Translations under genes and position numbers: made by a program
Shown here: piece after piece, positions 5,535-34,230 of the stretch
Numbering within the stretch: position 1 is the stretch's first letter
How the letters are laid out: each line of letters begins with the position of its first letter
The notes under the pieces: model-generated
What the model was told of the DNA's origin: nothing
Seen by the model: the letters and a program-made list of their open reading frames with translations, nothing else
The model's database searches: none
NCBI GenBank assembly: GCA_947259215.1
Contig: CAMYLJ010000053.1
Location: 1-34,230, forward strand
DNA length: 34,230 nt
Source: an uncultured delta proteobacterium
GTDB taxonomy: Bacteria; Myxococcota_A; UBA9160; JAFDET01
Reading direction: 5' to 3'

Positions 5535-5659
5535 GCTTACAGTGTGCTTACCGGGCCGGGAGTCAGGGCCGATTCCATTGCAAGTGCAAGGAGTTAGAGG
5601 CCAGTCGACGCTGAATGGGGTTCAGGAGGTCGCGAGTTCGAATCTCGCCGGCCCGACCA
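5535..5659 (+). repeat. tRNA-Pro-like dispersed repeat, copy 1
   Basis: Full-length 125-bp copy. GCTTAC occurs at 5535 and again 11 bases later; GATTCC lies at offset 36. The tRNA-like part begins with CTGAAT at 5611, exactly 76 bases from the first GCTTAC. It holds an anticodon-type arm with loop ATGGGGT (anticodon GGG), an AGGTC variable loop, T-arm GCGAG-TTCGAAT-CTCGC, CGGCCCG and ACCA. No matching 5' acceptor strand or D-arm is present, so it is not a functional tRNA. The tail begins GCTTCTTCCCCGAAA, as in the copy at 32145. The rest of the 5380-5867 spacer shows no gene. Confidence 0.85.
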
Positions 5660-5867
5660 GCTTCTTCCCCGAAACTCTTTTGTTTCCCGACGGGTTGCAC
5701 TGCGACGCCGTGCGCTCCGTTACTCCCCGATCCGCCGCTATTTCGGTCCGTTTGCCTACTATGTGCTTGTTGTGAGCGGGCCGAGGCGCGCCTGAAGCAG
5801 CGCATGCCGCTCCCAGCGTATGATCGGAGCGCGAGCACACGACCGCGACGCTTGGAGGTGAACGGGC

Positions 5868-7283
5868 ATGTCGGAGGCCGGCGATCGCGAGCTCCTCGAG
5901 AAGCAGTTCCAGGAGCTCCTGGCAGCGGAGAAGGCACATCTCCCCGCCCTGTCCGCGCCACCCAAGCGCCGGCGTCCGGAGCCGCCCAAGCTCGTGCGCG
6001 AAGCGGTCGTGCGCGATCTGGAAGGCCGGGTGCGGCGCCTGGCCGAGGAGCACGTCTTCCGGCACGGGCGCCGGCTGGCGGGCATGAGAGAGACGCTCCA
6101 GGCGAGGATCGCGGAGGTGGCGAAGGAGCTGGAGGCCACTCCCTACGAGACCGAGCAGGCCAAGTGGCTGGTCTACAAGCAGCACATGCTCGAGCAGGCC
6201 GACGAGACCAGCATCCATCGCTGGGACAACGACGTCTCCAAGATCTACAAGCTGTCACCGCCCAACGCGGGCAAGTCGATCACGGACAACAACCCCTACG
6301 TGAATCTCCTCGACATCGAGGAATTCGATGTGGCCTCCGAGGTCTACCCCTACTTCGACGTGCCGGCGACGTGGGATCCGGAGCTCTACGGCAAGTTCTT
6401 CACGACGATGCACGGAGAGGTGACGGGCGACCCCCAGGCCTTCCTCCCCCAGATCATGCGAGACAGGCAGCGCATGAAGGAGGAGGCTCTGGGCGGGCGC
6501 ATTCCTCCCGTCTCCGAACAGAAAGAGACCGACCTCGCGAAGCTCAAGCAGGAGATCCGCGAATACGCTCGCTCGCTGGGCTTTCCGACGCTGGGCGTGA
6601 CCAAGCTGGATCGGCGCTACACCGCCGAGAGCGCCGATGCCGAGCTGCCCTACGACACCCTGATCCTCCTGCCCCACGAGATGCCCCTGGACGAGTTCAA
6701 GAAGATCCCCACCGACAATCCCCTGATGGCCTTCACCTCCTATCGCGACGGCGGCCAGGCGGTCCACAAGGTGGCCGACTTCATCCGCTCGAAGGGCTAC
6801 CGATGCCTGGCGCGCGTCTCTTCCGATGGCGCGATCAAGTACGCGCCCCACGCGGTGAACGCGGGCATGGGCAACTATTCGACCTTCGGGATCTGCATCT
6901 TCCCGGAGGTCGGAACCCGCACGAAGGTGACCGGGATCCTGATCGACGCCGAGCTCCCGCTGGACCGTCCGCGGGACTGGAACATCGAGGAGTTCTGCTC
7001 CCGCTGTCGGAGCTGCCAGAAGACCTGCCCCGCCGGGGCCATTCCCCGCGACGAGCGACGCTTTCGAGGCACCCTCAAGCGCCAGACCTACCACCAGCGC
7101 TGCTTCGAGTACATGGCGACCAGCTACGAGTGCAACCTGTGCACGCGGATCTGTCCGTTCAGCGTGCTGGGCTACGAACAGTGCATGCGCGCGCTGCCCC
7201 AGTACTACCGCTACAATATCCATCGCGACGAGGTGGACTTCGCCCGGCTGAGGGAGCCGGCGCAGCCGGAGGTCGCCGAATGA
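5868..7283 (+). CDS. reductive dehalogenase-like corrinoid/Fe-S protein (no Tat signal)
   Basis: The 471-residue protein matches the reductive dehalogenase superfamily in its C-terminal half. The corrinoid-domain segment contains HAVNAGMGNYSTFGICIFPEVGTR followed by LIDAELPLD, close to the family pattern A-G-G-G-x-x-P-x-x-G-x-R...TDLPL. Two ferredoxin-type clusters follow: C377-x2-C380-x2-C383-x3-C387-P, then Cys412 with C422-x2-C425-x3-C429-PF. The N-terminus is a charged, partly helical region. It lacks the twin-arginine signal of respiratory, membrane-associated dehalogenases, so the enzyme is probably cytoplasmic and catabolic or donor-linked. GGAGGT lies 8 bases before the ATG. The stop overlaps the next start (ATGA), indicating an operon with an electron-donating flavoprotein. 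The actual substrate, and whether it dehalogenates at all, cannot be read from sequence. Confidence 0.8.
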   Translation: MSEAGDRELLEKQFQELLAAEKAHLPALSAPPKRRRPEPPKLVREAVVRDLEGRVRRLAEEHVFRHGRRLAGMRETLQARIAEVAKELEATPYETEQAKWLVYKQHMLEQADETSIHRWDNDVSKIYKLSPPNAGKSITDNNPYVNLLDIEEFDVASEVYPYFDVPATWDPELYGKFFTTMHGEVTGDPQAFLPQIMRDRQRMKEEALGGRIPPVSEQKETDLAKLKQEIREYARSLGFPTLGVTKLDRRYTAESADAELPYDTLILLPHEMPLDEFKKIPTDNPLMAFTSYRDGGQAVHKVADFIRSKGYRCLARVSSDGAIKYAPHAVNAGMGNYSTFGICIFPEVGTRTKVTGILIDAELPLDRPRDWNIEEFCSRCRSCQKTCPAGAIPRDERRFRGTLKRQTYHQRCFEYMATSYECNLCTRICPFSVLGYEQCMRALPQYYRYNIHRDEVDFARLREPAQPEVAE

Positions 7284-9274
7284 TCGAGGTGCGGCTCCTC
7301 GGCGCGATCAACCGGCCCGGCATCGTGCAGGTGGACGAGTCGCTCACCTTCAAGCAGCTGCTCGAGGAGCACGGCGGCGGGATGCAGCGGAAGTACCCGC
7401 GGCCCGTCGTGATGCAGGTGGGCGGCCCCCTGGGTCCGATCGTGCGGGGCTCGCGGATCAACGACCGGCTTCGCGACCACGCCCCGCAGATCCGCACCGC
7501 CCGCATGGTGGCCTTCTTCGGCGAGCGCTTCTGCCCCGTCGACTTCCTCGTCTTCCTGACCCGTTTCCTGGTGCGGGAGGCGGGCATCGACACGCCGCAC
7601 GTGCGCGCGGTCCACCGCACCGTGGGTGACATCGCGGGAGGGCGCAGCGACAGGACCGCCCTCGAGCGCCTGCGGGATCTGGCCGCGGCGGGTGGCGCTC
7701 TCTCTCACGGCGAGCGGCGCATGAACGCCACCCTCGACGACCTGATGGACATCTTCGGGGACGACTTCGCCGAGCACGTCGAGGCCCGGTACTGCCACTT
7801 CGGCGTCTGCCGGATCCTCTTCCATCACAACGCGCCGTGCAGCAACACCTGCCCGAGCAACATGAACGTCCCGGGCTACATCGAGCTGATCAAGCACGAT
7901 CGGCTCGAGGACGCCTACACGCTGATGAAGCAGGACAACCCGCTCTCCTTCGTGTGCGGGAAGGTGTGCCCGGCCCCCTGTGAGACCCGCTGCCGCCAGG
8001 GAGACATCTCGGGGGTGTCCGTCGCGATCCGGCAGCTCAAGCGCTACATCGCCGATGATCGCGTCGCGTCCTCGACGGAGTACTACGAGGATCGCCTCCC
8101 CGCCCGGGACCAGCGCGTCGCCGTCGTCGGCGGGGGGCCGGCCGGGGTCTCCGCGGCCTTCTACCTGGCGAAGACCGGATACCCGGTTCACATCTACGAG
8201 GCGCAGGACCGGCTGGGCGGAATGCTCGCCTACGGCATTCCGGCGTACCGCCTGGGGAACCACGACATCGAGGCGGAGCTCGCGTTCCTGGGGAAGATGG
8301 GCGTGACGGTCCACCTCGGCACCCGTGTCGGTGAAGACATCCCCCTCTCGCGGTTGCGGGCCGAGAACGACGCGGTCCTGCTGGCGACCGGCCGCTGGGT
8401 GGGCCGGAAGATGGGTCCAGTGAGTCTGCAGATCGAGTCGGCGGCCGAGTTCCTTTGGGCCGTGAAGCAGGGCGAGCGGGCGTCCGTCCCGGAGAAGGTC
8501 GTCGTGATCGGGGGTGGGGCGGTCGCCATGGACTGCGCGATGACGGTGCCGCGACTGGGCGGACATGCGACTCTTGTCTCGCTGGAGCAGCGTGCCGAGA
8601 TGCTGGTCCCCGAGTACGAGGTCGAGGAGGCGGTGGAGGACGGCGTCGAGCTTCTCAACGGCTGGTCGGTGAAGGAGTTCGTGTCGGAGGGCGACCGGTT
8701 GCGAAAGCTGGTGCTGGAGCGCTGTGTGCGCGTCTTCGACGACGAGTTCCGTTTCGCCCCGGAGTTCGACCCGGACGAGCGGATGGAGATCGAGGCCGAT
8801 CTCGTGATCAGCGCCGTCGGCCAGGATGCGGACCTCGGCTACCTTGACGACGATATCGCCCTCGACGAGCGCCGGAGGCTCGTGCTCGACTCCGCCTTCC
8901 GGACCTCGGTCGATGGCGTCTTTGCCGCAGGCGACATCAAGGCACCGGGCCTCGTCATCAGCGCGGTGGGCGAGGGCAAGCGCGCAGCGATGAGCATAGA
9001 CCTCTATCTGGGCGGGAGCGGGGTCCACTTCGGACGGTCGATCGAGGTGCCGGAGTCGCGGCTCGACCCGAGGATCTGGGACTTCCCGCGCGAGCAGGCG
9101 GCGAAGCTATCCGCCGAGGAGCGGGTGCGTGGCTTCGCGGAGGTCGAGTCCACGTTCTCGTACGACCAGGCGCACGCCGAGGCCAAACGCTGCATGCGCT
9201 GTGACCGCAACTCGGTGCAGGAGCTCCATCTGCGGACCTTCCCGGGGAAAGAGGGGATGGGCGCTTGGACATGA
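7280..9274 (+). CDS. FAD/NAD(P)-dependent oxidoreductase, NuoF-like N-terminus with GltD-like body
   Basis: The 664-residue protein is a multidomain electron-transfer flavoprotein. Residues 1-60 (LLGAINRPGIVQVDESLTFKQLLEEHGGG) resemble the SLBB domain of NuoF. Residues about 70-140 resemble the NuoF Fe-S helical bundle but keep only one of its usual cysteines (FCPVD). From about 170 there is a GltD/dihydropyrimidine-dehydrogenase-type Fe-S region: CSNTCPSNMNVPGYI and CGKVCPAPCETRC. The FAD site VAVVGGGPAGVSAAFYLAKTG is near residue 280, an NAD(P) site VVVIGGGAVAMDCAM near 406, and the second FAD motif ends in FAAGDI. A final CMRCDRN could complete a cluster. Overlap with the dehalogenase-like gene suggests it supplies NAD(P)H electrons to that protein. 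Similar flavoproteins serve other pathways, so the partnership is inferred. Confidence 0.8.
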   Translation: MIEVRLLGAINRPGIVQVDESLTFKQLLEEHGGGMQRKYPRPVVMQVGGPLGPIVRGSRINDRLRDHAPQIRTARMVAFFGERFCPVDFLVFLTRFLVREAGIDTPHVRAVHRTVGDIAGGRSDRTALERLRDLAAAGGALSHGERRMNATLDDLMDIFGDDFAEHVEARYCHFGVCRILFHHNAPCSNTCPSNMNVPGYIELIKHDRLEDAYTLMKQDNPLSFVCGKVCPAPCETRCRQGDISGVSVAIRQLKRYIADDRVASSTEYYEDRLPARDQRVAVVGGGPAGVSAAFYLAKTGYPVHIYEAQDRLGGMLAYGIPAYRLGNHDIEAELAFLGKMGVTVHLGTRVGEDIPLSRLRAENDAVLLATGRWVGRKMGPVSLQIESAAEFLWAVKQGERASVPEKVVVIGGGAVAMDCAMTVPRLGGHATLVSLEQRAEMLVPEYEVEEAVEDGVELLNGWSVKEFVSEGDRLRKLVLERCVRVFDDEFRFAPEFDPDERMEIEADLVISAVGQDADLGYLDDDIALDERRRLVLDSAFRTSVDGVFAAGDIKAPGLVISAVGEGKRAAMSIDLYLGGSGVHFGRSIEVPESRLDPRIWDFPREQAAKLSAEERVRGFAEVESTFSYDQAHAEAKRCMRCDRNSVQELHLRTFPGKEGMGAWT

Positions 9275-9411
9275 AGACCTTCCCGCTTCTGATCGCCATG
9301 ATGGGGCTCGCGCTGATCACCGTGAGCGGGGTGTGCTTCGTCGCCATCACGCTCTTGAGGGAGGAATCCAGTGCTCGAGGAAAGTCATCACTACTTTGGA
9401 CGTGCGGCTGA
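9271..9411 (+). CDS. 46-residue single-pass membrane peptide
   Basis: A small gene sits between the oxidoreductase and glutamate dehydrogenase. Its ATG overlaps the upstream stop (ATGA, 9271-9274), and its 3' end overlaps the first 41 bases of the dehydrogenase gene in another frame. The peptide is MKTFPLLIAMMGLALITVSG followed by a further hydrophobic stretch and a charged tail from LLREESS. One membrane helix spans residues about 4-30. Translational coupling on both sides argues that it is real. It could anchor the dehalogenase/oxidoreductase pair to the membrane, much as RdhB does for respiratory dehalogenases, but it is shorter than RdhB and no homology was seen. Confidence 0.55.
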   Translation: MKTFPLLIAMMGLALITVSGVCFVAITLLREESSARGKSSLLWTCG

Positions 9412-10618
9412 TGTCCTCGGTCTCTCGGAGAAGGTGCGCGAGATCCTCATTTCGCCCAAGCGGGTGGTGAAGGTCGAGCTCGTGATCGAGGGCGATGACG
9501 GTGCGCTCCAGCACTTCATCGGCTTCCGGGCACAGCACAACACGGCGCGGGGTCCCTACAAGGGCGGCCTTCGTTACCACCCCTCCATGGACGAGGACCA
9601 CGCCATGGCCCTCGCCAATCTCATGACCTGGAAGACGGCAGTCGTGGACGTGCCGTTCGGGGGGGCCAAGGGCGGCATCGACTGCGACCCCTCCCGGCTG
9701 AGCCGCGCCGAGCTGGATCGGGTGACGCGAGCCTTCGTGGCGCAGACGAAGGAGGTGATCGGGCCCACCGTCGACATCCCGGCGCCCGACGTCAACACCA
9801 ACGCCGACGTGATGGCGTGGATCATGGACGAGTACAGCAAGTACTTCGGCTTCTCGCCCGGGGTCGTGACCGGCAAGCCGGTCGATCTCTTCGGCTCGGA
9901 GGGCCGGGAGGAGGCCACCGGGCGGGGCGTGATGTACGCCCTCGAGGAGGCCCTGCGCGACCGGGGTCGCGCGCTTTCGGACGTGAGCGTGGCGCTCCAG
10001 GGCTTCGGGAACGTCGGGAGCCACGCGGCGCGACTCATCGCGGAGCGTGGCGGCCGCGTCGTCGCGGTCGCCGACCACGCCGGTGGCGTGGCGCGCAAGG
10101 ACGGACTCGACGTCCCGGCGCTCGTTGACTGGACGCGCGAGCATCGCACGGTCGCGGGATACCCGGACGCCGACACGTTCGATGGGCCGGACATCATCGG
10201 TTGGGAGGCGGACGTGCTGATCCCAGCCGCGCTCGAGGACGCGATCACGAAGGAGAACGCCGCCGACGTTCGTGCCCAGGTGGTGGTGGAGGCGGCCAAC
10301 GGACCCACGACCCCGGAGGCCGCCGAGATCCTCCACCAGCGCGACGTGACCGTGGTGCCGGACATCCTTGCGAACGCGGGCGGCGTGACGGTCAGCTATT
10401 TCGAATGGGCGCAGAACATCCAGCAGTTCCGCTGGGACCGCGACCGCGTGACGGACGAGCTCGAGAAACGGATGCGAGCGGCCTATGGCGCCGTACGGGA
10501 GGTCGCCCGCCAGAAGCAGCTCGACCTGCGCACGGCGGCCTTCGTGCTGGCCATCCAGCGCGTGGGTCGCGCCGCCCTGTCGCGGCAGAGCGTGCGGGAG
10601 GAGATCGACTTCGGCTGA
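9371..10618 (+). CDS. Glu/Leu/Phe/Val dehydrogenase (glutamate dehydrogenase type)
   Basis: The 415-residue protein has the length and motifs of hexameric glutamate dehydrogenases. They include ARGPYKGGLRYHP with the substrate-binding lysine, LMTWKTAVVDVPFGGAKGG with the catalytic lysine, PAPDVNT, the dinucleotide motif ALQGFGNVGSHAA near residue 210, and ANGPTTPEA followed by LANAGGVTVSYFEW. It catalyses NAD(P)-dependent oxidative deamination of glutamate to 2-oxoglutarate, or the reverse. GTG start with GGAGG a few bases upstream (within GAGGGAGGAATCCA). It overlaps the small membrane-peptide gene, so it is the fourth gene of the dehalogenase-like operon. Its metabolic link there may be reductant supply, which is an inference. 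Confidence 0.9.
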   Translation: MLEESHHYFGRAADVLGLSEKVREILISPKRVVKVELVIEGDDGALQHFIGFRAQHNTARGPYKGGLRYHPSMDEDHAMALANLMTWKTAVVDVPFGGAKGGIDCDPSRLSRAELDRVTRAFVAQTKEVIGPTVDIPAPDVNTNADVMAWIMDEYSKYFGFSPGVVTGKPVDLFGSEGREEATGRGVMYALEEALRDRGRALSDVSVALQGFGNVGSHAARLIAERGGRVVAVADHAGGVARKDGLDVPALVDWTREHRTVAGYPDADTFDGPDIIGWEADVLIPAALEDAITKENAADVRAQVVVEAANGPTTPEAAEILHQRDVTVVPDILANAGGVTVSYFEWAQNIQQFRWDRDRVTDELEKRMRAAYGAVREVARQKQLDLRTAAFVLAIQRVGRAALSRQSVREEIDFG

Positions 10619-10656: not shown

Positions 10657-10752
10657 GCTTATCGGGCGCTTACAGCCCTGCGCGAGACCGCCGAAACGGC
10701 AGCTCTTCCAAGCAGTTACCGACCTCTTCGTCCTGAAGGGAATTCAGGAGGG
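10657..10752 (+). repeat. divergent tRNA-like repeat, copy 2 of the family
   Basis: GCTTAT at 10657 is followed by GCTTAC 11 bases later, and CTGAAGGGAATTCAGG starts at 10733, again exactly 76 bases from the first hexamer. The interior and the 3' part have drifted: the anticodon-arm stem survives but the T-arm and CCA are not recognisable. The invariant spacing in an otherwise eroded copy supports common descent. It lies between the ends of two convergent genes. Confidence 0.6.
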
Positions 10753-12318: not shown

Positions 12319-12443
12319 GCTTACGATGTGCTTATCGCCTTCGGCTTCGAGACCGATACCGAAACGATTCCCATAGCTTGGAACCGGATGGGCCCTGAAT
12401 GGGGTTCAGGAGGTCGTGAGTTCAAATCTCGCCGGCCCGACCA
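12319..12443 (+). repeat. tRNA-Pro-like dispersed repeat, copy 3
   Basis: Full 125-bp copy. GCTTAC at 12319 and GCTTAT 11 bases later; GATACC and GATTCC at offsets 36 and 47; CTGAAT at 12395, offset 76. The tRNA-Pro(GGG)-like half ends ACCA at 12443. It has two T-arm changes (GTGAG, TTCAAAT) relative to the others. It sits in a 785-bp spacer (12008-12792) that holds this repeat, its tail hairpin and an inverted sister copy, but no gene I can support. Confidence 0.85.
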
Positions 12444-12450
12444 ATGGAAT

Positions 12451-12491
12451 CAGCCGGTTGCGGACCCCGTCTTCCCGCCCAGAACCGGCTG
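12451..12491 (+). repeat. hairpin tail following repeat copy 3
   Basis: CAGCCGGTT (12451-12459) pairs with AACCGGCTG (12483-12491), a perfect 9-bp stem with a 23-base loop containing CCCCGTCTTCCC. The same tail follows the copy at 21066 with one stem mismatch, and its first arm survives after the copy at 29875. It is therefore part of the repeat in one subfamily and may act as a bidirectional terminator. Confidence 0.55.
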
Positions 12492-12651
12492 GCAAGCACC
12501 CGGCAAGCAGTCCGTTCGTCCTTTGGGACCCCGCCGGGGGCCAATGTGGAGCCGGGCTACGATCGCGTCCGTCACCGTGGATCTGTTTCGAGGCAGCCGC
12601 TGCCCCGCGTGCGAATCGAACATCGCGGGCGGCCGGTAATCGAGTGGTTTC

Positions 12652-12778
12652 ATGGCTCGGGCCGGCGAGATTCGAACACTCGACCTGCGCAACCCGATTC
12701 AGGACCCGTCAGCTTCCAAACCCCTGGGATCATGTGGGAATCGGCCCCGAAATCGGAGGCAGCAAGCGCACCGCAAGG
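12652..12778 (-). repeat. tRNA-Pro-like dispersed repeat, inverted copy 4
   Basis: Reverse-strand copy. Read on the minus strand, CCTTGC then GCTTGC 11 bases on, GATTCC and GATCCC at offsets 36 and 47, and CTGAAT at offset 76. The anticodon-type loop here is ATCGGGT (anticodon CGG), and the 3' end is CGGCCCGAGCCA instead of CGGCCCGACCA. It begins 14 bases after the stop of the sensor cyclase gene and forms a tail-to-tail inverted pair with the copy at 12319. Confidence 0.75.
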
Positions 12779-18959: not shown

Positions 18960-18964
18960 CGCGA

Positions 18965-21065: not shown

Positions 21066-21110
21066 ATGGGGTTCAGGAGGTCGCGAGTTCGAATCTCGCC
21101 GGCCCGACCA
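21066..21110 (+). repeat. tRNA-Pro-like repeat copy 5, 3' half only, next to the integrase
   Basis: This copy has the loop-to-CCA part (ATGGGGTTCAGGAGG onward) identical to other copies but no hexamer pairs upstream. At the expected positions there is unrelated, AT-richer sequence with several TCGCA motifs (about 21010-21045). The homology begins at the anticodon loop, where some integrases recombine. It is best read as an integration junction made by the adjacent integrase or a relative. Confidence 0.75.
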
Positions 21111-22422: not shown

Positions 22423-22424
22423 GC

Positions 22425-25529: not shown

Positions 25530-25534
25530 GCTCG

Positions 25535-26440
25535 TCAGAATCCGATCGCCCAGCGCACGTGCTCGTCGCAGGCGTGCTGGAGCTCGTTGCGACGCACGCG
25601 TTCGCGCGCCCGCGCGCGCACGTCGGGATCCTCGATGCGGGGGATCTGCTTGCTGACGACCTGATAGAGGGCGAAGCCGTCCCCGAACGGGACCGGACCG
25701 ACGAGCTCCTCCTCCGCGGCGGCGGCGAGGGCGCCGGTGCTCTCGGGAGGCAACTCCTCCAGCCAGAAGTCCACCCGCTCGAGCGGACGCGCCGCGTCGG
25801 CGGCGACGGCGTCGAGGGATTCCCGGTCCTCGCGTACCCGTAGCGCCCCCTCCCGGGCCATGGGCTCTTCCGGGAGCACCAGCCGGCGAGCTCGGATTCG
25901 CAGCCAGTCCAGGCGGTGAAGCGCCAGGCAGCGCTCGAGGGCAGACGTCGAGGGCTCGCCGAGATCGGCGACCGCAGCGGCCGCCTCGGCCGCCAGGGCC
26001 CGGGCCGCCTCCTCGAGGGCGCCGGAGCAGATGGCTTCGCTCCAGTGTGCGGCCGAGAGCGCGGCCGGGTCGGGCGAGAAAGGCGCGAGGATGGCTCCGA
26101 GTTCGTCGGCCCAGTGCTCGCGCAGCAGCCCTCGACGCAGGGCTGCGGTCCAGGCCTCTTCATCGAGGCCCCAGCGCCCCAGCCAGGCGCGCGTGTCGTC
26201 GCCAGAGATCAGGTCGCGCGCGTAGCGGAAGCTCTCCGCGGCTGCGTCGAGGGCGCCGGCCGGCAGCGGATCGCCCTCCGCCTCGGCGCGCAGCTCGCAC
26301 GCGAGCCCCGCCCGGGCCCGTGCCTCGACGGCCGCCCAGACGCCGCGCCGTCGCGCGGCGTCGACGACGTCCTTCCCGGTGTATTCGGTGGACCCGACGC
26401 GGAACACGACGCGCTCCTGCCCCATGCCCATCGTAGGCAT
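25535..26440 (-). CDS. parvulin-like (PpiC-related) peptide maturation protein
   Basis: The 301-residue protein has a SurA/PpiC-like layout: a short beta-start (VVFRVGSTEYTGKDVVDAAR), a long helical region, and a C-terminal domain with ERVDFWLEELPPE and VGPVPFGDGFALYQVVSKQI, which recalls the parvulin rotamase core. Related proteins accompany peptide exporters and have been described as putative peptide maturation proteins. No signal peptide is seen, so it may act in the cytoplasm on the precursor. ATG at 26440 is preferred because GAGGGG lies 4 bases upstream; ATG 26431 and 26425 are close alternatives. It is the first gene of the export operon, 5 bases before the ABC gene. Confidence 0.65.
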   Translation of the reverse strand: MPTMGMGQERVVFRVGSTEYTGKDVVDAARRRGVWAAVEARARAGLACELRAEAEGDPLPAGALDAAAESFRYARDLISGDDTRAWLGRWGLDEEAWTAALRRGLLREHWADELGAILAPFSPDPAALSAAHWSEAICSGALEEAARALAAEAAAAVADLGEPSTSALERCLALHRLDWLRIRARRLVLPEEPMAREGALRVREDRESLDAVAADAARPLERVDFWLEELPPESTGALAAAAEEELVGPVPFGDGFALYQVVSKQIPRIEDPDVRARARERVRRNELQHACDEHVRWAIGF

Positions 26441-26614
26441 TGTACCCCTCGGGGGGGAGGGAAAGGGAGATCCTGGGAGAGACCGGGCGGTGCTCGTGGC
26501 GCGCGCCCGACGCGGGGGCCTCGCCCGGCCTCCGGGCAGACTCGCCGGACCTGCCCCCGAGGGAAGACGGGATTCGTGCAGCGGGTCTCCGACCGGCGAA
26601 CCGCCCGAGGCTCT

Positions 26615-26662
26615 GGGTCTGAAGCGCTGACGGCTCGGCGGCGCCCGGCCGTGCACGTCCTG
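26615..26662 (+). repeat. decayed duplicate of the precursor-end/glycosyltransferase-start junction
   Basis: GCGCTGACGGCTCGGC (26624-26639) and CCGTGCACGTCCTG (26649-26662) recur in the same order at 26890-26905 and 26923-26936, where they are the end of the peptide gene and the start of the glycosyltransferase gene. The upstream pair lies ahead of the peptide gene, so an earlier tandem copy of this junction was probably lost. Confidence 0.6.
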
Positions 26663-26731
26663 CATGGCGGCCCGGCTCTCGCCCGCATCGTGGCATACTG
26701 GCAGCCGGACCCACCCAAAGGAGGCTCCATC

Positions 26732-26896
26732 ATGCCGTCCAAGAAAGGCAAGAAGAAGGCGACCCGGAAGTCGTCTTCCAAGAAGACCAAGGATCTCTCT
26801 CCGCGCAAGGACCCGAAGGGCGGAGCCGTCGGCGACACGCTTACCCTTAACCTGAAGGGCAAGGACTCGGTGCGCCCCAGGGGTTTCAGGCGCTGA
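26732..26896 (+). CDS. putative double-glycine peptide precursor (RiPP/bacteriocin-like)
   Basis: The 54-residue peptide has a very basic Lys/Ser-rich start (MPSKKGKKKATRKSSSKKTK), then DLSPRKDPKGG, with a Gly30-Gly31 pair suitable for C39 cleavage. A 23-residue putative core follows, AVGDTLTLNLKGKDSVRPRG plus FRR, which has no cysteine but two serine/threonine-rich spots. AAAGGAGG lies 6 bases before the ATG, a near-ideal ribosome site, which strongly supports expression. It is divergent from the C39 exporter operon and 28 bases upstream of a glycosyltransferase gene on the same strand. That it is the exporter's cargo is inferred from the motif and position. Confidence 0.75.
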   Translation: MPSKKGKKKATRKSSSKKTKDLSPRKDPKGGAVGDTLTLNLKGKDSVRPRGFRR

Positions 26897-26924
26897 CGGC
26901 TCGGCTGGGCTCGGAGGCGGGACC

Positions 26925-28121
26925 GTGCACGTCCTGTTCGTGCATCCGAGCAATCCGGCGCAGTTCCGCCCCGTGCTCGGTCATCTCGCCCGGCGCCCCG
27001 GGTGGCGCTGCACCTTCGTCGCCGCGCGGCGGGCCGTGCGGATCGATGGTGTCGAGCACCTTCGCTATCGCCCGCGCGGCGGCGCCACCGAGTACAACTC
27101 GTTCCACACCCGGACGTTCGAGAACGCCGTCGCGCACGCCGAGGGCGTCTATCGGGCGCTGAAGGCCCGGCCCGACGTCCAGCCCGATCTGATCGTGGGC
27201 CACTCGGGCTTCGGATCGACGATCTTCCTGCGTGAGCTCTTCGACGCGCCGATCGTGAACTACTTCGACTTCTTCTACCGTCCGGGTCTCGATTTCCGTC
27301 CCGATTTCCCGATCGGCGAAGCCGAGCGTCTACGCGCCCGGGTCCGCGGCGCGATGGTGCTCCTCGACCTCGACAACTGCGACGCCGGCTACACCCCCAC
27401 CCGATTCCAGCAGCGGAGCCTGCCGGCGGAGTATCGGGAGAAGGTTCGCGTCATCCACGACGGCGTGGATACCGAGGTCTTCCAGCGACGCTCGAACCCG
27501 GGGCGCCGGATCGGCAGCCGAACCATCGCTCGGGACACCCGGATCGTGACCTACTGCGCCAGCGGACTCGAGCTGACCCGCGGCTTCGACGTCTTCATGA
27601 GGGCGGCGAAGATCATCTATCGCAAGCATCCGGACGTCGTCTTCCTCGTGGTCGGGAGCGACCACGTCTTCTACGGGGACGACGAGGACTGGATCGGGAA
27701 GCACGCCTCGCTGCGCGAGTGGGTCCTGGCGCAGGATGAATACGACCTCTCGAAGTTCGTCTTCCTGGGACGCGTCGCCCGGCGGACGCTCGCCCGGGTC
27801 TTCTCCCTGAGCGACGTCCACGTGTATCTCACGGTCCCCTTCGTCCTCGGCTGGTCGCTGATGGATGCACTGTCCTGCGGCGCCGTGGTGGTCGGGTCGG
27901 ACACGGAGCCCGTGCGCGAGATGATCCGCCCTGGCGAGAACGGGCTTCTCGCGGATTTCTTCGACGCCGAGAGAATCGCCGACCTGGCGCTCGGCGTGTT
28001 TCGCGACCCCGGCGCCTACGAAGGCATGCGCCGCAACGCAGCCGCGTTCATCGAGGAGCACTACAGCGCCGATGTCGTGGTTCCCCGGATCCTCGAGCTC
28101 TACGAGCGCGTGGCGGGCTGA
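26925..28121 (+). CDS. GT4-type glycosyltransferase
   Basis: The 398-residue protein has the two Rossmann halves of GT-B glycosyltransferases. The N-terminal half starts MHVLFVHPSNPAQFRPVLGH, with DLIVGHSGFGSTIFLRELF and YFDFFYRPG. The C-terminal half has VTYCASGLELTRGFDVFMRA, VFLVVGSD, and the sugar-nucleotide loop YLTVPFVLGWSLMDALSCGA ending VREMIRPGENGLL (the E-x7-E-like region). It transfers a sugar to an unknown acceptor. The tight spacing after the peptide gene suggests the peptide, or a surface glycan, as target. GTG start chosen by fit to the N-terminal beta strand. Confidence 0.85.
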   Translation: MHVLFVHPSNPAQFRPVLGHLARRPGWRCTFVAARRAVRIDGVEHLRYRPRGGATEYNSFHTRTFENAVAHAEGVYRALKARPDVQPDLIVGHSGFGSTIFLRELFDAPIVNYFDFFYRPGLDFRPDFPIGEAERLRARVRGAMVLLDLDNCDAGYTPTRFQQRSLPAEYREKVRVIHDGVDTEVFQRRSNPGRRIGSRTIARDTRIVTYCASGLELTRGFDVFMRAAKIIYRKHPDVVFLVVGSDHVFYGDDEDWIGKHASLREWVLAQDEYDLSKFVFLGRVARRTLARVFSLSDVHVYLTVPFVLGWSLMDALSCGAVVVGSDTEPVREMIRPGENGLLADFFDAERIADLALGVFRDPGAYEGMRRNAAAFIEEHYSADVVVPRILELYERVAG

Positions 28122-28137
28122 TCCGGAGAGCGGGCGG

Positions 28138-28160
28138 ACCGGGAGGGCAGAGGGCCCGGT
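28138..28160. terminator. hairpin between convergent glycosyltransferase and sulfotransferase genes
   Basis: ACCGGG and CCCGGT form a 6-bp stem with an 11-base purine-rich loop, placed midway in the 42-base gap between two convergent stop codons. It may end transcription from both sides; no T-tract is present. Confidence 0.4.
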
Positions 28161-28163
28161 GGC

Positions 28164-28967
28164 TCAGATCTCGTAGCCCCGTGACCGGGCCAGCTCGCGG
28201 TTGAGGCCACGCACGATCGCGAGGTCGCTCTCGCCGAGCAGCCGCTTCCACGTGCCCCGATTGGACTCGTCGATGGGCCGGTCTCGCATGGTTCCGCCGA
28301 TCGCCTCGCCCGAGTGCAGCTCGTGATGTCGGAGCACGTTGTCGTCCCAGGCCAGGCCCAGTTCGTGGAGCACCTCCCCGACGACTCGGCGCGGCTCGGT
28401 GACCAGGTCCTCGTAGCCCACCGGGCGCAGTGGAATGCCGGAGGAGGCGACCACGCTCATCCACTCCTGCTTGATGCGCCAGCAGAGGGCCCCGGCGAGC
28501 ACGATCTCCTGTCTGGAACGCGAAGCAGGCGGCCGGGCCTGCGACCGCACCCAGTCCGCATGGACGGTCTCGAGCGCCGCTCGGGTCGCAGCCGGCAGGG
28601 CCGGATAGCCGCTTTCGATCTCGAAAGTGGCGCCACCCGGATGAGCCGCCCAAGGTGCAGAGCCCGCGTCGCCCAAGGACAGGTGCAGGCCCACCATGGA
28701 CGCCACCACGTCCCTTGGATCGCGAACGCACCAGAGCACCCGGACGTCCGGCAGGCTGCGCATGAACTCGACGTCGTGCGCCTGGCGCGGAAGCTTGAAG
28801 ACCACCTGTGGGCTGTATTCGCTGGCGCTCAGGTAGCGTGGGAGCTCGTCGATGTCGAAGTCCCACTCGTCGACCACCGTCGCGTCGGCATGGGAGTCCA
28901 GGATCAGGCTCAGCAGGGTCGTCCCGCTGCGTTGACAGCCGGTGACGAGGATCGGTCGATTGCCCAT
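28164..28967 (-). CDS. sulfotransferase family protein
   Basis: The 267-residue protein starts MGNRPILVTGCQRSGTTLLS, the 5'-phosphosulfate-binding loop of PAPS-dependent sulfotransferases. The 3'-phosphate motif is in VLWCVRDPRDVVASMVGLHL. Late motifs RPVGYEDLVTEPRRVVGEVL and a final R-x2-W-x2-L pattern (NRGTWKRLL) also fit. It should transfer sulfate from PAPS to a carbohydrate, lipid or peptide. It faces the glycosyltransferase gene and shares its neighbourhood with a methyltransferase, so together they may decorate one product. Confidence 0.85.
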   Translation of the reverse strand: MGNRPILVTGCQRSGTTLLSLILDSHADATVVDEWDFDIDELPRYLSASEYSPQVVFKLPRQAHDVEFMRSLPDVRVLWCVRDPRDVVASMVGLHLSLGDAGSAPWAAHPGGATFEIESGYPALPAATRAALETVHADWVRSQARPPASRSRQEIVLAGALCWRIKQEWMSVVASSGIPLRPVGYEDLVTEPRRVVGEVLHELGLAWDDNVLRHHELHSGEAIGGTMRDRPIDESNRGTWKRLLGESDLAIVRGLNRELARSRGYEI

Positions 28968-29031
28968 GGCCTCAGGGTACGCTGGCGCCCGCTCGCTGGC
29001 AGCGGCGCTGCGGGCCTCGTTGGGGAGAGGC

Positions 29032-29646
29032 TCAACCGGTAGGGGTGTCCGGCTGCTCGTAGGGGCGGCACGCGGCGAGGCACTCGTCGAAGAGGGCCAG
29101 CATGCGCTCGGGCGCCAGCTCGGCGCCCGGCAGCGGAGCCTTCGGGTCCTTGATGGTCAGCACCGCGAAGTCGATGTGACTCACCACGTTGAACAGGTGT
29201 CTCCGCGCCCATTCCTGGTCTTTGGCGGGCTTGTTCGCGTACTCGTCCGTGTAGTGCAGTCGGTGGGCGATCTTCGTAAAGAGGATGTCGTCTTGCTCGG
29301 CCGCCGAGCCCTTGAGCCGATCCGGGTCGAAGAAGTCGAAGGAGTGCTCGTTGAAGTTCTGCCGATGGTACGGATTGACCAGGTTGTACTCGGTGAGGGT
29401 GACGTAGGGCACGCCGACCAGCAAAGGGCAGCCGTGCTTGAGCACGCGGTGGATCTCGCCGAGGGCGAAGAGATAGCGGTCCAGGTGTTCGAGTGCGTGA
29501 TAGGTGAAGACCAGGTCCACGCTGTCGTCGTCGAACGGCAGCCGATCCACGTTGAGATCGAGACTCACGTCGGCCCTCGAGGAGAGGTCCACGTTGGCAA
29601 AGCCTCGTATATAGGTCCGTCCCGCCCCGATGTTCAACCTGGTCAC
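29032..29646 (-). CDS. class I SAM-dependent methyltransferase
   Basis: The 204-residue protein opens LNIGAGRTYIRGFANVDLSS, motif I of small class I methyltransferases that act on sugars or surface polysaccharides. Motif II-like LPFDDDSVDLVFTYHALEHL and the post-motif HRVLKHGCPLLVGVP follow. The substrate is unknown. GTG start with GGGAG upstream; the TTG four codons on is an alternative. It lies 64 bases upstream of the sulfotransferase gene on the same strand and is likely co-transcribed with it. The 375-bp spacer upstream holds a tRNA-Pro-like repeat. Confidence 0.85.
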   Translation of the reverse strand: MTRLNIGAGRTYIRGFANVDLSSRADVSLDLNVDRLPFDDDSVDLVFTYHALEHLDRYLFALGEIHRVLKHGCPLLVGVPYVTLTEYNLVNPYHRQNFNEHSFDFFDPDRLKGSAAEQDDILFTKIAHRLHYTDEYANKPAKDQEWARRHLFNVVSHIDFAVLTIKDPKAPLPGAELAPERMLALFDECLAACRPYEQPDTPTG

Positions 29647-29874: not shown

Positions 29875-29999
29875 GCTTGCAGTGTGCTTACTGGCGCCAG
29901 GCCACGGGCCGATTCCTCAATGATTCCAATTGGTTGCGGAGCGCCTCGTCCTGAATGGGATTCAGTAGGTCGCGAGTTCGAATCTCGCCGGCCCGACCA
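29875..29999 (+). repeat. tRNA-Pro-like dispersed repeat, copy 6
   Basis: Full 125-bp copy. GCTTGC at 29875 and GCTTAC 11 bases on; GATTCC at offsets 36 and 47; CTGAAT at 29951, offset 76. The loop reads ATGGGAT with CAGTAGG after the stem, a small change from the others. ACCA ends at 29999. The tail begins AGGAAATCAGCCGGT, a partial version of the hairpin tail of copies 3 and 5. Confidence 0.85.
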
Positions 30000-30021: not shown

Positions 30022-30810
30022 CTACGGTGCGCCTTCGAAGCGATCGACCGCCCAGGTGGCGACCGGGCCCTCCACGCCCCGCACCTCCGCAGGCGGCATG
30101 GGGCGCAGGGCGAAGCGCGGGTCGAGGTCTTCGCGCACGGCCGTGGTCACCAGAACGTCGCCGTCGCAGCTGCGCGTCAGGTCCTGGACCCGGGCGGCGA
30201 GGTTCACGGTGCGCCCCACCAGCGCGAACTGCACGAGGTCACGGCTGCCGACCAGGCCGGCAACACCCGATCCGCGGTGGATGCCCACCCCGATCGCGAT
30301 AGTCGGCAGACCCTCGGCCGCCAGCTCCTTGTTGTAGGCTTCCAGCTCGCGGCGCATGGCCAGGGCCGCGTGCGCGGCGTCGTTGGCCTGCCAGGGGTTC
30401 GGCTGGAGCGCGCCGAAGAGCGCCAGGATCCCGTCGCCCAGGAACGTGGACACGTACCCCCGGTGGTCCGTGATGGCGCGGCTCATGCGCTCGAAGTGGC
30501 CGTTCAGGATGCGCAGGAGCACGTCGGGCTCGATGCTCTCGGAGAGCGCCGTGAAGCCCACGAGGTCGGCGAAGAGCGCCGTCACCTCCTTGCGTTCGCC
30601 GCGGGGCGCAACGCCGCTCGCGATGATCTCCTCGATGATCTCGTCGGGGGCGAAACGCGAGAAGGAGTGCTGGAGGTTCTCGAGCTCACGGGCCGCCGCC
30701 TCGAGGCGTCGGCGCAGGCGCCGCCGCTCCACGCCGGCGCGCCAGAGCCACGCGCCGAGCCCGAGGAGCGCCAGGCCGAGCGCCGCCACCGCCCACGGCG
30801 GCAGCGTCAC
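30022..30810 (-). CDS. membrane-anchored class III adenylate/guanylate cyclase
   Basis: The 262-residue protein has one N-terminal helix (PWAVAALGLALLGLGAWLW), a short coiled linker, and a complete cyclase domain. Metal aspartates are in LFADLVGFTAL and FLGDGILALFG. The transition-state Asn and Arg are in LVGRTVNLAARV. Unlike the cyclase at 12793, all catalytic positions are standard. It makes cAMP or cGMP in the cytoplasm. Its GTG overlaps the stop of the upstream CMD-family gene (GTGA), so the two form an operon. Confidence 0.88.
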   Translation of the reverse strand: MTLPPWAVAALGLALLGLGAWLWRAGVERRRLRRRLEAAARELENLQHSFSRFAPDEIIEEIIASGVAPRGERKEVTALFADLVGFTALSESIEPDVLLRILNGHFERMSRAITDHRGYVSTFLGDGILALFGALQPNPWQANDAAHAALAMRRELEAYNKELAAEGLPTIAIGVGIHRGSGVAGLVGSRDLVQFALVGRTVNLAARVQDLTRSCDGDVLVTTAVREDLDPRFALRPMPPAEVRGVEGPVATWAVDRFEGAP

Positions 30811-31907
30811 GCGAGCTGCCCGAGCACGAGGCACAGCCGGCACACGGCGTTGCCGAGGGCGGACAGGCCGACCAGCTCCATGAACTGCTCGTCGTCGAGC
30901 TCGGCCTTCACCTCGCGAGCCCGGCGCTGGATCGGCGCCGGCTGGTACCAGACCGTCTCGCGCACGAAGGGCAGGATCGCGGCCTCGAGGGGCTCGAGAG
31001 CCGGCGATTCCAGGTGGGCGAGGATCTCCTCGCCCTGCGCCGGCGAGATCCCCGCTGCGTCCAGCAACCGGAAGGCCTCGGCCTCGGATCGCGCGCAGCC
31101 CAGGGCCCGCGCCACCACGGCGAACACGAGCGCCTTGGTGCGCTGGGGGAGGGAGGTCGGGGCGAAGGCATCGTCCAGGATGGCACGCAGCTTGCGCCCG
31201 GCGGGCAGCCCGTCGAGCGCGCACACGATGTCCGCGAAGGGTCCCTCCTTCTCCTCCGCGTCCAGGCGGACCTCGCCGTGCCGCCGGTGATAGAGGCGCA
31301 GGGCCCGGGCGCGCAGAAAGGGCCGCACCAGGGCGAGGAGCCGGGTCCTCCCGGCGCGCTCCAGGCCCTCGGGACGCAGGGCCACGAACGTCGTGAGACG
31401 GTTGACCATCACGAAGCTGGCGGCGACGCAGGCGAGCTCCTTCAGCTCCGCATCGGAGTAGCCGACCTCGCGCAGCGCCTTCACGTCCGCGTCCGAAGGC
31501 GGGGGATTGGCGCGCGAGACGCGGCGGGCGAAGTCGAGCGCGAGGCCGAGCGCCGCGTCCTCGCCGGCCAGCAGGAGGCCTCCCTCGAGGCGATCGATCT
31601 CGGCGTTGTCGAGGCCCGCAATGCGCAGGAAGAGCCGGCTTCCCGCGTAGCAGTTGCGGCAGGCGTTGTCGCGGCTCACCACCACGACGGCGAGATCCGC
31701 TACCCGCCAGTCCAGATCGCGGAGGTCCTTGCGCGCGAGTCGCCCGGCCGCCCGCGCCACCCACGGGCTCCCCGTGAAGCAGGCCACGACACGGTACGGC
31801 AGGCCTTCCGCCCGCGCCCAGCGCTCGAGCTCTGCGTCGCCGCGCCGCTCGACCAGCGGAGGGCGCTCCCACTCGATCGCGTCGATCCGGTCGGGTGCCG
31901 TCGTCAT
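30807..31907 (-). CDS. carboxymuconolactone decarboxylase/AhpD-like protein, probably tandem domain
   Basis: The 366-residue protein is all-helical by composition. The first half carries DNACRNCYAG, the CxxC redox motif of AhpD/CMD proteins, in a region WRVADLAVVVVSRDNACRNC typical of peroxidase-related CMD enzymes. The second half has the related VFAVVARALGCARSEAEAF, where the second cysteine is replaced by Ser. A duplication with one degenerate site is likely. The role may be peroxide or disulfide reduction. It is translationally coupled to a cyclase, hinting at redox-linked cyclic nucleotide signalling; this is inferred only from the overlap. Confidence 0.75.
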   Translation of the reverse strand: MTTAPDRIDAIEWERPPLVERRGDAELERWARAEGLPYRVVACFTGSPWVARAAGRLARKDLRDLDWRVADLAVVVVSRDNACRNCYAGSRLFLRIAGLDNAEIDRLEGGLLLAGEDAALGLALDFARRVSRANPPPSDADVKALREVGYSDAELKELACVAASFVMVNRLTTFVALRPEGLERAGRTRLLALVRPFLRARALRLYHRRHGEVRLDAEEKEGPFADIVCALDGLPAGRKLRAILDDAFAPTSLPQRTKALVFAVVARALGCARSEAEAFRLLDAAGISPAQGEEILAHLESPALEPLEAAILPFVRETVWYQPAPIQRRAREVKAELDDEQFMELVGLSALGNAVCRLCLVLGQLA

Positions 31908-32139: not shown

Positions 32140-32144
32140 TCGGT

Positions 32145-32269
32145 GCTTACAATGTGCTTACTGGCTTCGGTCAGGGCATCGATTGTGGAATGATTCCAGA
32201 GAGTTGGGAGCCAATTGGCCCTGAATGGGGTTCAGGAGGTCGCGAGTTCGAATCTCGCCGGCCCGACCA
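32145..32269 (+). repeat. tRNA-Pro-like dispersed repeat, copy 7
   Basis: Full 125-bp copy and close to the family consensus. GCTTAC at 32145 and 32156; GATTGT and GATTCC at offsets 36 and 47; CTGAAT at 32221, offset 76; ACCA ends at 32269. The tail GCTTCTTCCCCGAAA is identical to that of copy 1. It sits 44 bases beyond the stop of the esterase gene on the other strand. Confidence 0.85.
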
Positions 32270-32313: not shown

Positions 32314-34152
32314 TCAGCGTTGCTCCAGGTGCAGGCGCAGGATGCGCCGGACTTCCTCGATCGCCGGGGGCGTCCCCTGGGCGGAGTGACCGGTGCGCTC
32401 GATCACGAATTCCGACTCGACGCCCTCCACGTGGGCGCTGTCGTACTGGACCACGCCGTCGTCCAGTCCGGCGAAGGGCGGCCCATCGCCTTTCACCGGG
32501 ATGATCGAATGGACCGCGACGCCCGGCGCGATCGGGCTCGCCGCCAGGGTGACGCTGAAGGGGTGCTCCGGGTCCATGTTGTCGACGCTGCTCGGGAGCC
32601 GTTCCAGGTCCCGCATGGCGAGGGCGTCGCGGTTGTCGGTCAGGATCTCGGCGCCGGTCTGCGCCAGGTTCACGGGCATCCGGACGAGACGCGCGGCCAT
32701 CCGGCCGAGGCGGTTGCCCGCCACGAAGCTGCCCGCGTGCGGCGTCGAGATGAAGATCACGCGCTTCACCGAGGCCACCGGCTCGAAGAAGAGGGACCGC
32801 TGCAGGAGGTCGCGGGTCGCGTCGCTGACGTCGAGCTCGGCGAGGGGCTTCGTGGCCACCGCGTTCCAGAAGCGGTCGCCGCTGTCGGTCACCATGAGGC
32901 GGACGATGACGCCCCCCTGGCTGTGACCGATCAGCACCATGTCGCGCAGCGCCGGGTCGCGGCCCTCCGGGTCGAGCTCGCGGACGGCGCCGCGCAGCGC
33001 CTGACGGAGAAGGGACGCCGAGTAGAGAATCGGGTTGCCGGTGTTGTACATGAAGAGCCAGAGCTGACAGCGGCGGTCGATCAGCGGATCGCCCATCAGC
33101 TCGTTCAGAAGCTCGGCCCAGCGCGCGGGGCTCGACGCCGTGCCGTGGACCAGGACGACCGGGACGCGTCCCCGGCTGTAGGGCTGGAGCGCGTACAGGC
33201 CGTCGACGTCGGACCGGTAGGAGCCGGAGAGGTAGCCCCGCTTCTCGAAGGCCCAGGCCTCGGAGTGCTCGAGCGTGTAGGCCAGGGCCGCCGTCGGATC
33301 GTACTCGAGAGGGACCGCGCGACCGGCGACCGTCACACTGGGAGCCACGTGCTCGGCAAAGAGCTCGAGCCTCCCGTGCACGCGGCCCGCGCGAACCGAG
33401 CGCCGGGGGGCCTCGAAGCGGATCAGGACGGTGACGGGAACCTGGAGGGCTGGTGGGATCCGCAGCGATCGCTCGGTCGCGTCCTCGCTTTGCTCGCGCT
33501 CGAGGCTCCCCGCCAGCGCAGCTCCGATGCCCGGGCGGCGGTAGCGGTTGCGAAGACCGCGAACCTCGAAGCGGGCCAGGGAGGTGAAGCCCGCGAAGCG
33601 ATGCTCGCCCCAGGAGAACGCGTCCGGGTCGCTCTCGAGCTCGAGCGTTCCGAAGGGGACCTCGAAGGTCCCCCCGTGCAGCGCGATGGCCCCGGCTTCG
33701 GTCTCCTCGAAGCCCTCCGCGATCCCACGGTTGTAGAGATCCAGGGCCAGGCGCGTGCGGGCGTCGAAGGGCCCAGGCGGCTCGACGGAGTCGGGAAAGA
33801 GGAACGCGTAGGCGTAGAGGGCGGCGGCCAGGTAGCGAGTGTGGCTGCCGGTCTTCTGGCCCTGCTGGAACGAGAGCTCGGCGAGCGCGAAGAGCAGGCG
33901 ATCGTCCAGGTCGCTCCCGAGCTCGGCGTGCAGCGCCGCGAGGGCGTCCTCGGGGTCGCTCCCGTACCGGTCCCACAGCCCGAGGCGCAGCAGCTGCGAT
34001 TTCGAGAAGGAGCTGGGCTCGCCAGCCGAGAGGACGTTCCGGCTGAGGGCCCGGTGGGAGGTCTGATCGTCGACGCGCTCCACCCCGACCGGCGTGGCGC
34101 AGGCGGCAACGACAAGAAGGCCGAGGATCGCCGGCGGCGCGGGTCGCGGCAT
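32314..34152 (-). CDS. alpha/beta hydrolase lipoprotein (esterase/lipase-like)
   Basis: The 612-residue protein starts MPRPAPPAILGLLVVAACAT, a lipoprotein signal with lipobox VAAC, so it is probably anchored to a membrane. The N-terminal 330 residues form a beta-rich region of unknown type. The C-terminal half is an alpha/beta hydrolase: oxyanion-loop VPVVLVHGTASSPARW, nucleophile elbow MVLIGHSQGGVIVRL and ISTPHAGS. Asp and His candidates are in GLDDGVVQYDSA and ERTGHSAQG. It likely cleaves an ester at the cell surface. No strong ribosome site precedes the ATG. Confidence 0.85.
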   Translation of the reverse strand: MPRPAPPAILGLLVVAACATPVGVERVDDQTSHRALSRNVLSAGEPSSFSKSQLLRLGLWDRYGSDPEDALAALHAELGSDLDDRLLFALAELSFQQGQKTGSHTRYLAAALYAYAFLFPDSVEPPGPFDARTRLALDLYNRGIAEGFEETEAGAIALHGGTFEVPFGTLELESDPDAFSWGEHRFAGFTSLARFEVRGLRNRYRRPGIGAALAGSLEREQSEDATERSLRIPPALQVPVTVLIRFEAPRRSVRAGRVHGRLELFAEHVAPSVTVAGRAVPLEYDPTAALAYTLEHSEAWAFEKRGYLSGSYRSDVDGLYALQPYSRGRVPVVLVHGTASSPARWAELLNELMGDPLIDRRCQLWLFMYNTGNPILYSASLLRQALRGAVRELDPEGRDPALRDMVLIGHSQGGVIVRLMVTDSGDRFWNAVATKPLAELDVSDATRDLLQRSLFFEPVASVKRVIFISTPHAGSFVAGNRLGRMAARLVRMPVNLAQTGAEILTDNRDALAMRDLERLPSSVDNMDPEHPFSVTLAASPIAPGVAVHSIIPVKGDGPPFAGLDDGVVQYDSAHVEGVESEFVIERTGHSAQGTPPAIEEVRRILRLHLEQR

Positions 34153-34183
34153 TGCGGGCGGAGGGTAGCGCGGGCGCCCAGCT

Positions 34184-34230
34184 GCTTACGGTGCGCTTAC
34201 TGGCGTCGGTCCAGGGGCCGATTTCGAAAT
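34184..34230 (+). repeat. tRNA-Pro-like dispersed repeat, copy 8 (cut by window end)
   Basis: GCTTAC at 34184 and again 11 bases later, then CTGGCGTCGG and GGGGCCGATTTCGAAAT as in the other copies. The expected CTGAAT would fall at 34260, beyond the window. Confidence 0.75.

Follow-up and report, generated by a model that had tools for sequence, protein, structure and literature searches.

Repeated 3' halves of tRNA-Pro in an uncultured delta proteobacterium as probable tyrosine-integrase attachment sites in a stacked array of small cassettes

The contig CAMYLJ010000053.1 of an uncultured delta proteobacterium (assembly GCA_947259215.1) carries eight related copies of a repeat in which the 3' half of a tRNA-Pro is joined to a left module of constant length, which raises the question of what the repeat does and why its length is kept. 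The window analysed here is this whole contig (C53; 34,230 nucleotides) and belongs to a source genome (G000) of 5.70 Mb in 128 contigs. An earlier, sequence-only reading of the window had considered the copies as attachment (att) sites of tiny integrative elements or as a structured intergenic element, and as members of a large dispersed family; the proposal of attachment sites is supported, while the large family and the structured element are not. The repeats are best explained, with a probability of about 0.9, as attachment sites of tyrosine integrases, the small cassettes between them being apparently stacked as an array behind the tRNA-Pro(GGG) gene.

A repeat profile was built from six window copies, so that their recovery (expect values, E, of 9e-41 to 2e-26) is by construction; the copy at 21066 (E 6e-15) and the copy at 34184, cut by the contig end (E 1e-8), were found by the same profile. 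All eight copies are thus real, and none of them overlaps a gene predicted by a simple gene caller, in agreement with the intergenic placement first reported. A profile search of eleven contigs (C7, C17, C23 and C29 in part only), from which matches with E > 0.01 were dropped, yielded 31 matches, of which 30 are partial copies and one is the intact tRNA-Pro(GGG) gene. A whole-genome search with an equivalent model gave 30 matches, comprising the intact gene, 28 of the partial copies and one weak match to the arm part only (C58:6361, 22 bits), which was taken as a chance match; the two partial copies absent from it are short remnants on C49 (E 2.5e-5 and 2.3e-4). Thirty partial copies on eleven contigs of a 5.7 Mb genome do not amount to the large genomic family, with one copy per 4 kb, that had been extrapolated from the window.

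A full copy consists of a left part, a core and a right part. The core corresponds to the tRNA-Pro sequence from the anticodon loop to CCA, and its assignment to tRNA-Pro(GGG) holds at 45 of 45 bases in the copies at 5615, 21066 and 32225; the complete 3' part ascribed to every copy is wanting at 10657, where only the start of the core is retained (21 of 45 bases match). The left part of 76 bases occurs in three types, of which A and B open with a pair of TGCTTAC-type motifs 11 bases apart, and C is found only next to a tyrosine integrase termed IntL. The copy at 21066, earlier called a half copy, indeed has an arm unlike the others, but this is a different, integrase-linked left arm rather than a missing one. 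When scored for TGCTTAC, the best arm pair within the type C arm does no better than random sequence, and IntL therefore probably uses another motif. In tRNA targets the anticodon loop serves as a rule as the strand-exchange overlap; in each of the three type C copies, identity to tRNA-Pro sets in precisely with the first base of the anticodon loop, as expected if the seven-base loop were the overlap. Right arms also fall into types. Type 1 is the kind that follows the intact tRNA on C23 and shows, in four copies, a direct pair 94 bases past CCA; in type 2 the pair is inverted and lies, in six copies, 40-49 bases past CCA. The repeat is accordingly best read as an attachment site composed of a tRNA-Pro core and a 76-base P arm of the element.

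The distance from the first GCTTAC-type hexamer to CTGAA, found earlier to be 76 bases in six of six window copies, was confirmed there. Across the genome it still centres on this value but is not invariant, being 76 in 15, 75 in three, 77 in one and 73 in one of 20 copies, a count that leaves out 11 of the 31 matches (arm not reached by the profile, copy cut, or intact gene) and in which the choice of copies by profile favours similar spacing. The arm pair scores 11 or 12 of 12 in 12 of the 20 copies, a score reached by 7 of 3000 random windows; the pairs at C37:6507 and C37:34770 score 8 of 12, which is no better than chance (563 of 3000 random windows).

The copies are concentrated in arrays and are not dispersed as had been supposed. 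On the six contigs with at least two copies, 25 of 26 share one orientation, the exception being the window copy 12654-12778. A tRNA-derived dispersed repeat, SINE-like (short interspersed element) or REP-like (repetitive extragenic palindrome) and copied by a transposase or a retro-mechanism, would account for many similar intergenic copies and is nevertheless highly improbable, since the copies are clustered and mostly in one orientation, their right flanks likewise fall into common classes, integrases adjoin them, and a tRNA-Asp array described below has the same geometry with other sequences. Moreover, in four relatives from other families a single tRNA-Pro 3'-half repeat lies near the gene (at 9.3 kb in G048, 5.4 kb in G019, 3.5 kb in G028 and 1.35 kb in G021) and carries the tRNA variant of that genome itself, with one mismatch in G021. 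Equally remote is the suggestion of a structured RNA, or of a regulatory element in the intergenic spacers, with a length set by RNA structure; the length constraint and the half tRNA with its intact T arm speak for it, but the eight copies show no excess folding (z -1.62 to +0.50; 60 shuffles per copy, keeping base composition only) and the window holds no Rfam family above its cut-off. A weak Rfam match to transfer-messenger RNA (tmRNA) at 20971-21110 scores 28 bits, below its cut-off of 47, and coincides in part with the tRNA-like 3' end of the copy at 21066.

The intact tRNA-Pro(GGG) gene lies at C23:1944-2020 and is directly followed by a tyrosine integrase of 395 amino acids (IntR), which also occurs after the copy C37:34770. 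IntL, of 445 amino acids, stands just before the window copy at 21066, before C37:22396 and, cut by a contig end, before C87:3644. Both carry Arm-DNA-bind_3 and Phage_integrase domains and are 52-53% identical, and the HxxR, R and Y positions, taken here to be the catalytic residues, are kept in both. The right arm of the first window copy, together with its core, is 92-94% identical to the DNA preceding IntR on C23 and C37, and the right arm of IntR itself carries a TGCTTAC pair like those of the cassette arms; IntR is the likeliest enzyme for the type A and B cassettes. A search for relatives of the integrases gave 525 confirmed stretches, of which the best 80 show 42-54% identity, the titles of these 80 being largely alphaproteobacterial.

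Consecutive copies in the same orientation bound 18 intervals of 748-10313 bases (median 4161), one interval end being the cut window copy, placed by its arm, and some being truncated cores. Seventeen of the 18 lack a full integrase, the exception being C37:12083-22396; C73:5561-6309 holds a truncated IntR and C49:22678-30293 a 220-base IntR fragment. Besides the cargo listed in Table 1, the window encodes a metallo-beta-lactamase-fold protein, and it has more than one adenylate cyclase. Pfam annotation covered 24 of the 27 called window genes, the other contigs being hardly annotated, and no transfer genes were seen among those 24. Gene orientation within the cassettes is mixed. Several pieces recur within the genome: window positions 32258-34229 (the cassette between copies 7 and 8) on C37 at 91%, 12786-15410 on C37 at 84%, and the IntL end elsewhere in the genome at 89-92%. 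An integrase followed by lined-up small cassettes and their recombination sites resembles a true integron or a cluster of attC sites lacking integron-integrases (CALIN), yet such an identity is the most improbable of those considered, because each site here combines paired arm sites with the 3' half of a tRNA, the integrases have Arm-DNA-bind_3 domains and the genes point in both directions.

Comparison with related genomes indicates that a cassette is common to two genera. The cassette C49:19361-22528 recurs in a genome of the same family and another genus (G002, contig C296), where it lies between two cores and is 88% identical over 3.18 kb. By comparison, the chromosomal sequence preceding tRNA-Pro shows 75% identity to that of one other relative (G001) and 71% to that of another (G003), and the baseline for G002 is 71%, from one common gene only. 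The DNA just upstream of the cassette in G002 matches C76 and not C49 (98.5% over 136 bases including the core, both contigs ending at that point), so that the neighbours of the cassette differ. Its left arm is kept in G002; in C49 the arm is lost and the core truncated. The upstream flank of tRNA-Pro is syntenic in G001 and G003, whose contigs end at or about 1 kb past the tRNA. A search of 79 genomes of the order for arm plus core returned full-length matches of at least 90 bits only in G000 and G002. Among the 30 loci of the order that were inspected (L100-L128 and L220; weak matches without a locus lie outside this set), the arm pair at 76 was present in G002 only, 25 others hold an intact tRNA-Pro, and four have a core with no tRNA-Pro call (G048, G051, G011 at a contig end, and G004). 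In G004, of a third family, the 5' end of an IntL-like gene, the type C arm and the core match at 81% and the match stops exactly at CCA. ARAGORN called a tRNA-Pro on the G002 att copy (L132, G002:C296, 616-693) spanning the core and the end of the P arm; the call is probably spurious, and such sites can thus be mis-annotated as tRNA genes.

It is quite possible, though below even odds, that the sites are decayed scars only, left by islands derived from integrative and conjugative elements (ICEs), integrative and mobilizable elements (IMEs) or prophages that inserted in succession, decayed in place and are now immobile, with no mobilisation in trans. Truncated cores or missing arms at five sites (C49:19347, C49:5201, C73:5561, C76:4968 and C105:4415) and the IntR remnants on C73 and C49 are in keeping with this, and accretion followed by decay is the usual account in the available part of a published description (PMC5704250). 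Against it stand the cassette common to two genera with different neighbours and the exact arm spacing in 15 of 20 copies despite diverged interiors, which suggests selection on function.

Several observations also weigh against the interpretation as attachment sites of a cassette array. The five damaged sites are among them, as is the counterpart on C37 (around 24499) of the cassette bounded by copies 7 and 8, one end of which has kept the right-arm sequence and lost the tRNA core. Copy 4 is inverted, and the copies on C29 and C7 adjoin about 90 and 99 kb devoid of further matches, so that some copies have moved by other routes; the start of C29 moreover overlaps C37 and C7 alike over 99 bases, a branch in the assembly. 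There was no sign of an excised circle, a read pair or a vacant tRNA-Pro site, the contigs breaking within the arrays, and no intact tRNA-Pro was found within the 20 kb read in G004. Genes of two window cassettes have 65-71% homologues in relatives at sites where no arm-plus-core copy was found, and hence part of the cargo may move otherwise than as cassettes. In viral contigs, a search for the exact pattern of the type A site gave no matches. Carriage by viruses thus gained no support, the integrases having a single relative there, at 23% identity.

As attachment sites, the repeats would have arisen as elements with a tRNA-Pro-type attP integrated serially behind tRNA-Pro(GGG), each restoring the tRNA 3' end, whereby a cassette array would grow. 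Each copy would then be the junction of two tandem elements, contributing the P arm of the left element, the core, and the P' arm of the right element; the P arm would span 76 bases and bear two TGCTTAC arm sites separated by one helical turn, and the 76-base spacing may be what one integrase needs for bridging arm and core sites. Most cassettes are now devoid of an integrase and have retained only their sites, and the resident IntR and IntL may excise or insert them in trans, or neighbouring cores may recombine. The sequences themselves show the anatomy of the sites, their repetition in one direction and the cassette common to two genera; we infer excision, mobilisation in trans, transfer, binding of the arms and continuity of the array across contigs, including the link to C23. 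The copies at 12319 and 12654 (12399-12778) are oriented towards each other and enclose two right arms, their core starts being 299 bases apart, an arrangement which appears to be a sign of inversion.

The tRNA-Pro sites are not the only ones of their kind in the genome. A pattern for tRNA 3' ends detected extra copies for several tRNAs among the matches listed, and the 24-base 3' end of tRNA-Asp (at most two mismatches) was found at 25 places in the fetched stretches, 24 of them besides the intact gene, in one orientation per contig on all six contigs with at least two. Sixteen of the 24 have a perfect 8-base direct pair on the left with a period of 10-11 bases, located 73-76 bases before the core in 15 and at 68 in one; such a pair occurs anywhere in 64 of 2000 random 80-base windows. 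The arm motifs themselves differ (TTGAGCAC, GGGATACA, CCGGCCAC, CGGATCCA and CATGAGCA). As the tRNA-Asp array combines nearly equal spacing with other arm sequences, the 76-base spacing is better read as the geometry of an integrase complex. A GATTCC...GTTNCGG box is common to the Pro profile (20 copies, the same 11 places being left out as in the spacing count) and the Asp profile (17 copies: the 25 places minus the intact gene, five judged armless by eye and two too near the contig start). Of the 31 offsets compared, one makes the two profiles most alike, with a similarity of -0.34; the other 30, which are not independent, average -1.45 with a standard deviation of 0.24. By hand count on the profile rows, the box begins about 33 (Pro) and 32 (Asp) bases upstream of the seven-base overlap, taken as the anticodon loop in tRNA-Pro and the T loop in tRNA-Asp. 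A single integrase for both arrays was considered and is unsupported, the integrase frame on the tRNA-Asp side being only distantly similar to IntL and IntR (33% over 124 residues). Two Pro copies, C17:157868 and C17:159299 (157.9 and 159.3 kb), lie within the first tRNA-Asp unit and bound a Pro-type cassette of 1.4 kb, which suggests that the arrays exchange material or nest.

A further reading, less likely than not, is a general integron-like platform, in which integrase-less cassettes with a standard P arm would use tRNA 3' halves as recombination sites and would be served by a few integrases and a common accessory factor. The P arm of such a platform would have its arm pair at about 74-80 bases and the GATTCC...GTTNCGG box about 32-33 bases before the seven-base overlap, a design that would hold whatever the tRNA, overlap or arm motif, and cassettes could be shuffled within and between arrays.

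Other tRNA 3' ends, one of them tmRNA-like, occur two to five times (C9, C23:90-97 kb, C1/C14/C22/C70, C8, C27 and others); these repeated ends, some beside integrases, are perhaps smaller arrays. Excluding the Pro copies, the 3'-end pattern has 88 matches in G000 (3 for the control), the most of 284 sampled genomes of the phylum, the runner-up, of the same order, having 66; a looser pattern gives 119, whereas none of 59 relatives exceeds 95 and 20 named genomes with related integrases have 45-77. All these counts also depend on the number of tRNAs per genome and on an encoded CCA. Two genomes of other families (G012 and G028) have many tRNA 3' ends, with identical ends repeated on C9 and C142 of G012, and possibly contain further arrays.

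The positions of the window features and of the tRNA-Asp array are collected in Table 1. A PEP-CTERM gene of the window is flanked by inverted repeats of 94% identity (17562-17648 and 18815-18901), and pieces neighbouring it (16661-17251, 17752-17961 and 18930-19130) have counterparts of 79-93% identity in several further families of the order; on account of these repeats and recurring pieces, a separate mobile element probably sits in the same cassette.

Table 1. Features of the window and location of the tRNA-Asp array (window positions, unless a contig is named)
Feature	Position	Strand
Copy 1, left (P) arm, type A; GCTTAC-N5-GCTTAC pair at 5535	5535..5610	+
Copy 1, tRNA-Pro 3' core (CTGA, then anticodon loop to CCA), 45/45 to intact gene	5611..5659	+
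Copy 1, right (P') arm, type 1; direct arm pair 94 bases past CCA	5660..5790	+
Cargo between copies 1 and 2: Fe-S protein, NAD(P) oxidoreductase, Glu/Leu/Phe/Val dehydrogenase	5868..10618	+
Copy 2, type B P arm and truncated core	10657..10752	+
Copy 3, type A P arm and core	12319..12443	+
Copy 3, right arm type 2, inverted TGCTTGC pair	12444..12508	+
Copy 4, inverted; type A P arm (12703-12778) and core	12654..12778	-
82-amino-acid HTH_17 protein adjoining integrase, candidate excisionase	19241..19489	-
Tyrosine integrase IntL: Arm-DNA-bind_3, central domain, Phage_integrase; probable start 20877	19540..20955	-
Copy 5, IntL-linked type C P arm and core; tRNA identity from anticodon loop, 21066	20986..21110	+
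Cargo between copies 5 and 6: HlyD, C39-peptidase ABC exporter, glycosyltransferase, sulfotransferase, methyltransferase	21169..29592	.
Copy 6, type A P arm and core	29875..29999	+
Cargo of 2.3-kb cassette between copies 6 and 7: adenylate cyclase, CMD-domain protein	30022..31907	-
Copy 7, type A P arm and core	32145..32269	+
Alpha/beta hydrolase, sole cargo gene of 2.0-kb cassette between copies 7 and 8	32314..34152	-
Copy 8, P arm, cut by contig end	34184..34230	+
tRNA-Asp array, several arm motifs	G000 C17:153274-213197, C28, C36, C42, C44, C57, C62, C75, C97, C115	

Tandem tRNA islands have mostly been described by their cargo, whereas dozens of sites in one genome make the att site readable as an alignment, with its arm pair, internal box, overlap and right arm. 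The mobility of integrase-less cassettes and the reason for the kept spacing thereby become testable, and the arm pair together with the tRNA 3' half provides a search handle for environmental cassette arrays that lie outside integron searches.

Additive islands anchored at tRNAs and marked by 3'-end repeats have been published (PMC4119200, PMC10872708, PMC7771536, PMC5217437). In the additive flexible genomic islands (fGIs) of Alteromonas (fGI1, PMC4119200), Methylophilaceae (fGI-2, PMC10872708) and Actinomarinales (fGI1, PMC7771536), a tRNA is likewise the target and 3'-end repeats mark the insertions. Here too, an intact tRNA apparently stands at one end, 3'-end repeats bound the units and an integrase lies beside the tRNA; in contrast to those islands, a single genome holds 30 partial tRNA-Pro sites and as many as 24 for tRNA-Asp, and the spacing of their P arms is conserved. 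Such arms do not appear in the portions of the three fGI accounts available. The ssrA islands of Dehalococcoides (PMC3146451), 31 over all strains, of which 15 lack an integration module and were proposed to be cis-mobilizable, similarly stand in tandem behind one RNA gene and are bounded by its 3' repeat, and no closer precedent was found among the matches listed from the open-licence literature, as judged by titles and the openings of abstracts. They are described with a serine recombinase, a 20-bp repeat and tmRNA in several strains, unlike the tyrosine integrases with arm-binding domains, the 45-base core, the tRNA-Pro target and the 30 partial sites in one genome. Cis-mobilizable elements (CIMEs; PMC5704250) likewise lack integration genes, keep attL and attR and stand in tandem with integrase-bearing elements; both att sites are kept without a full integrase in 17 of the 18 intervals here, several sites being truncated. 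CIMEs are described there as decay products of ICEs and IMEs, whereas the present cassettes are many and small and share a standard arm. IntS of ICEMlSym(R7A) (PMC11963761) is also a tyrosine integrase, with an attP of five repeated arm-type sites for efficient integration, but its element is large and conjugative (500 kb by the title of a reference), and no cassette array is described in the available text. Tycheposons (PMC10872708, PMC11389934), compared by description only, are also tRNA-bordered and carry a tyrosine recombinase and metabolic cargo, but are transposons of 4-200 kb. Tandem tRNA islands are thus already known, and what is notable here is the unusual length of the row, the small size of the cassettes and the unusually regular design of their sites.

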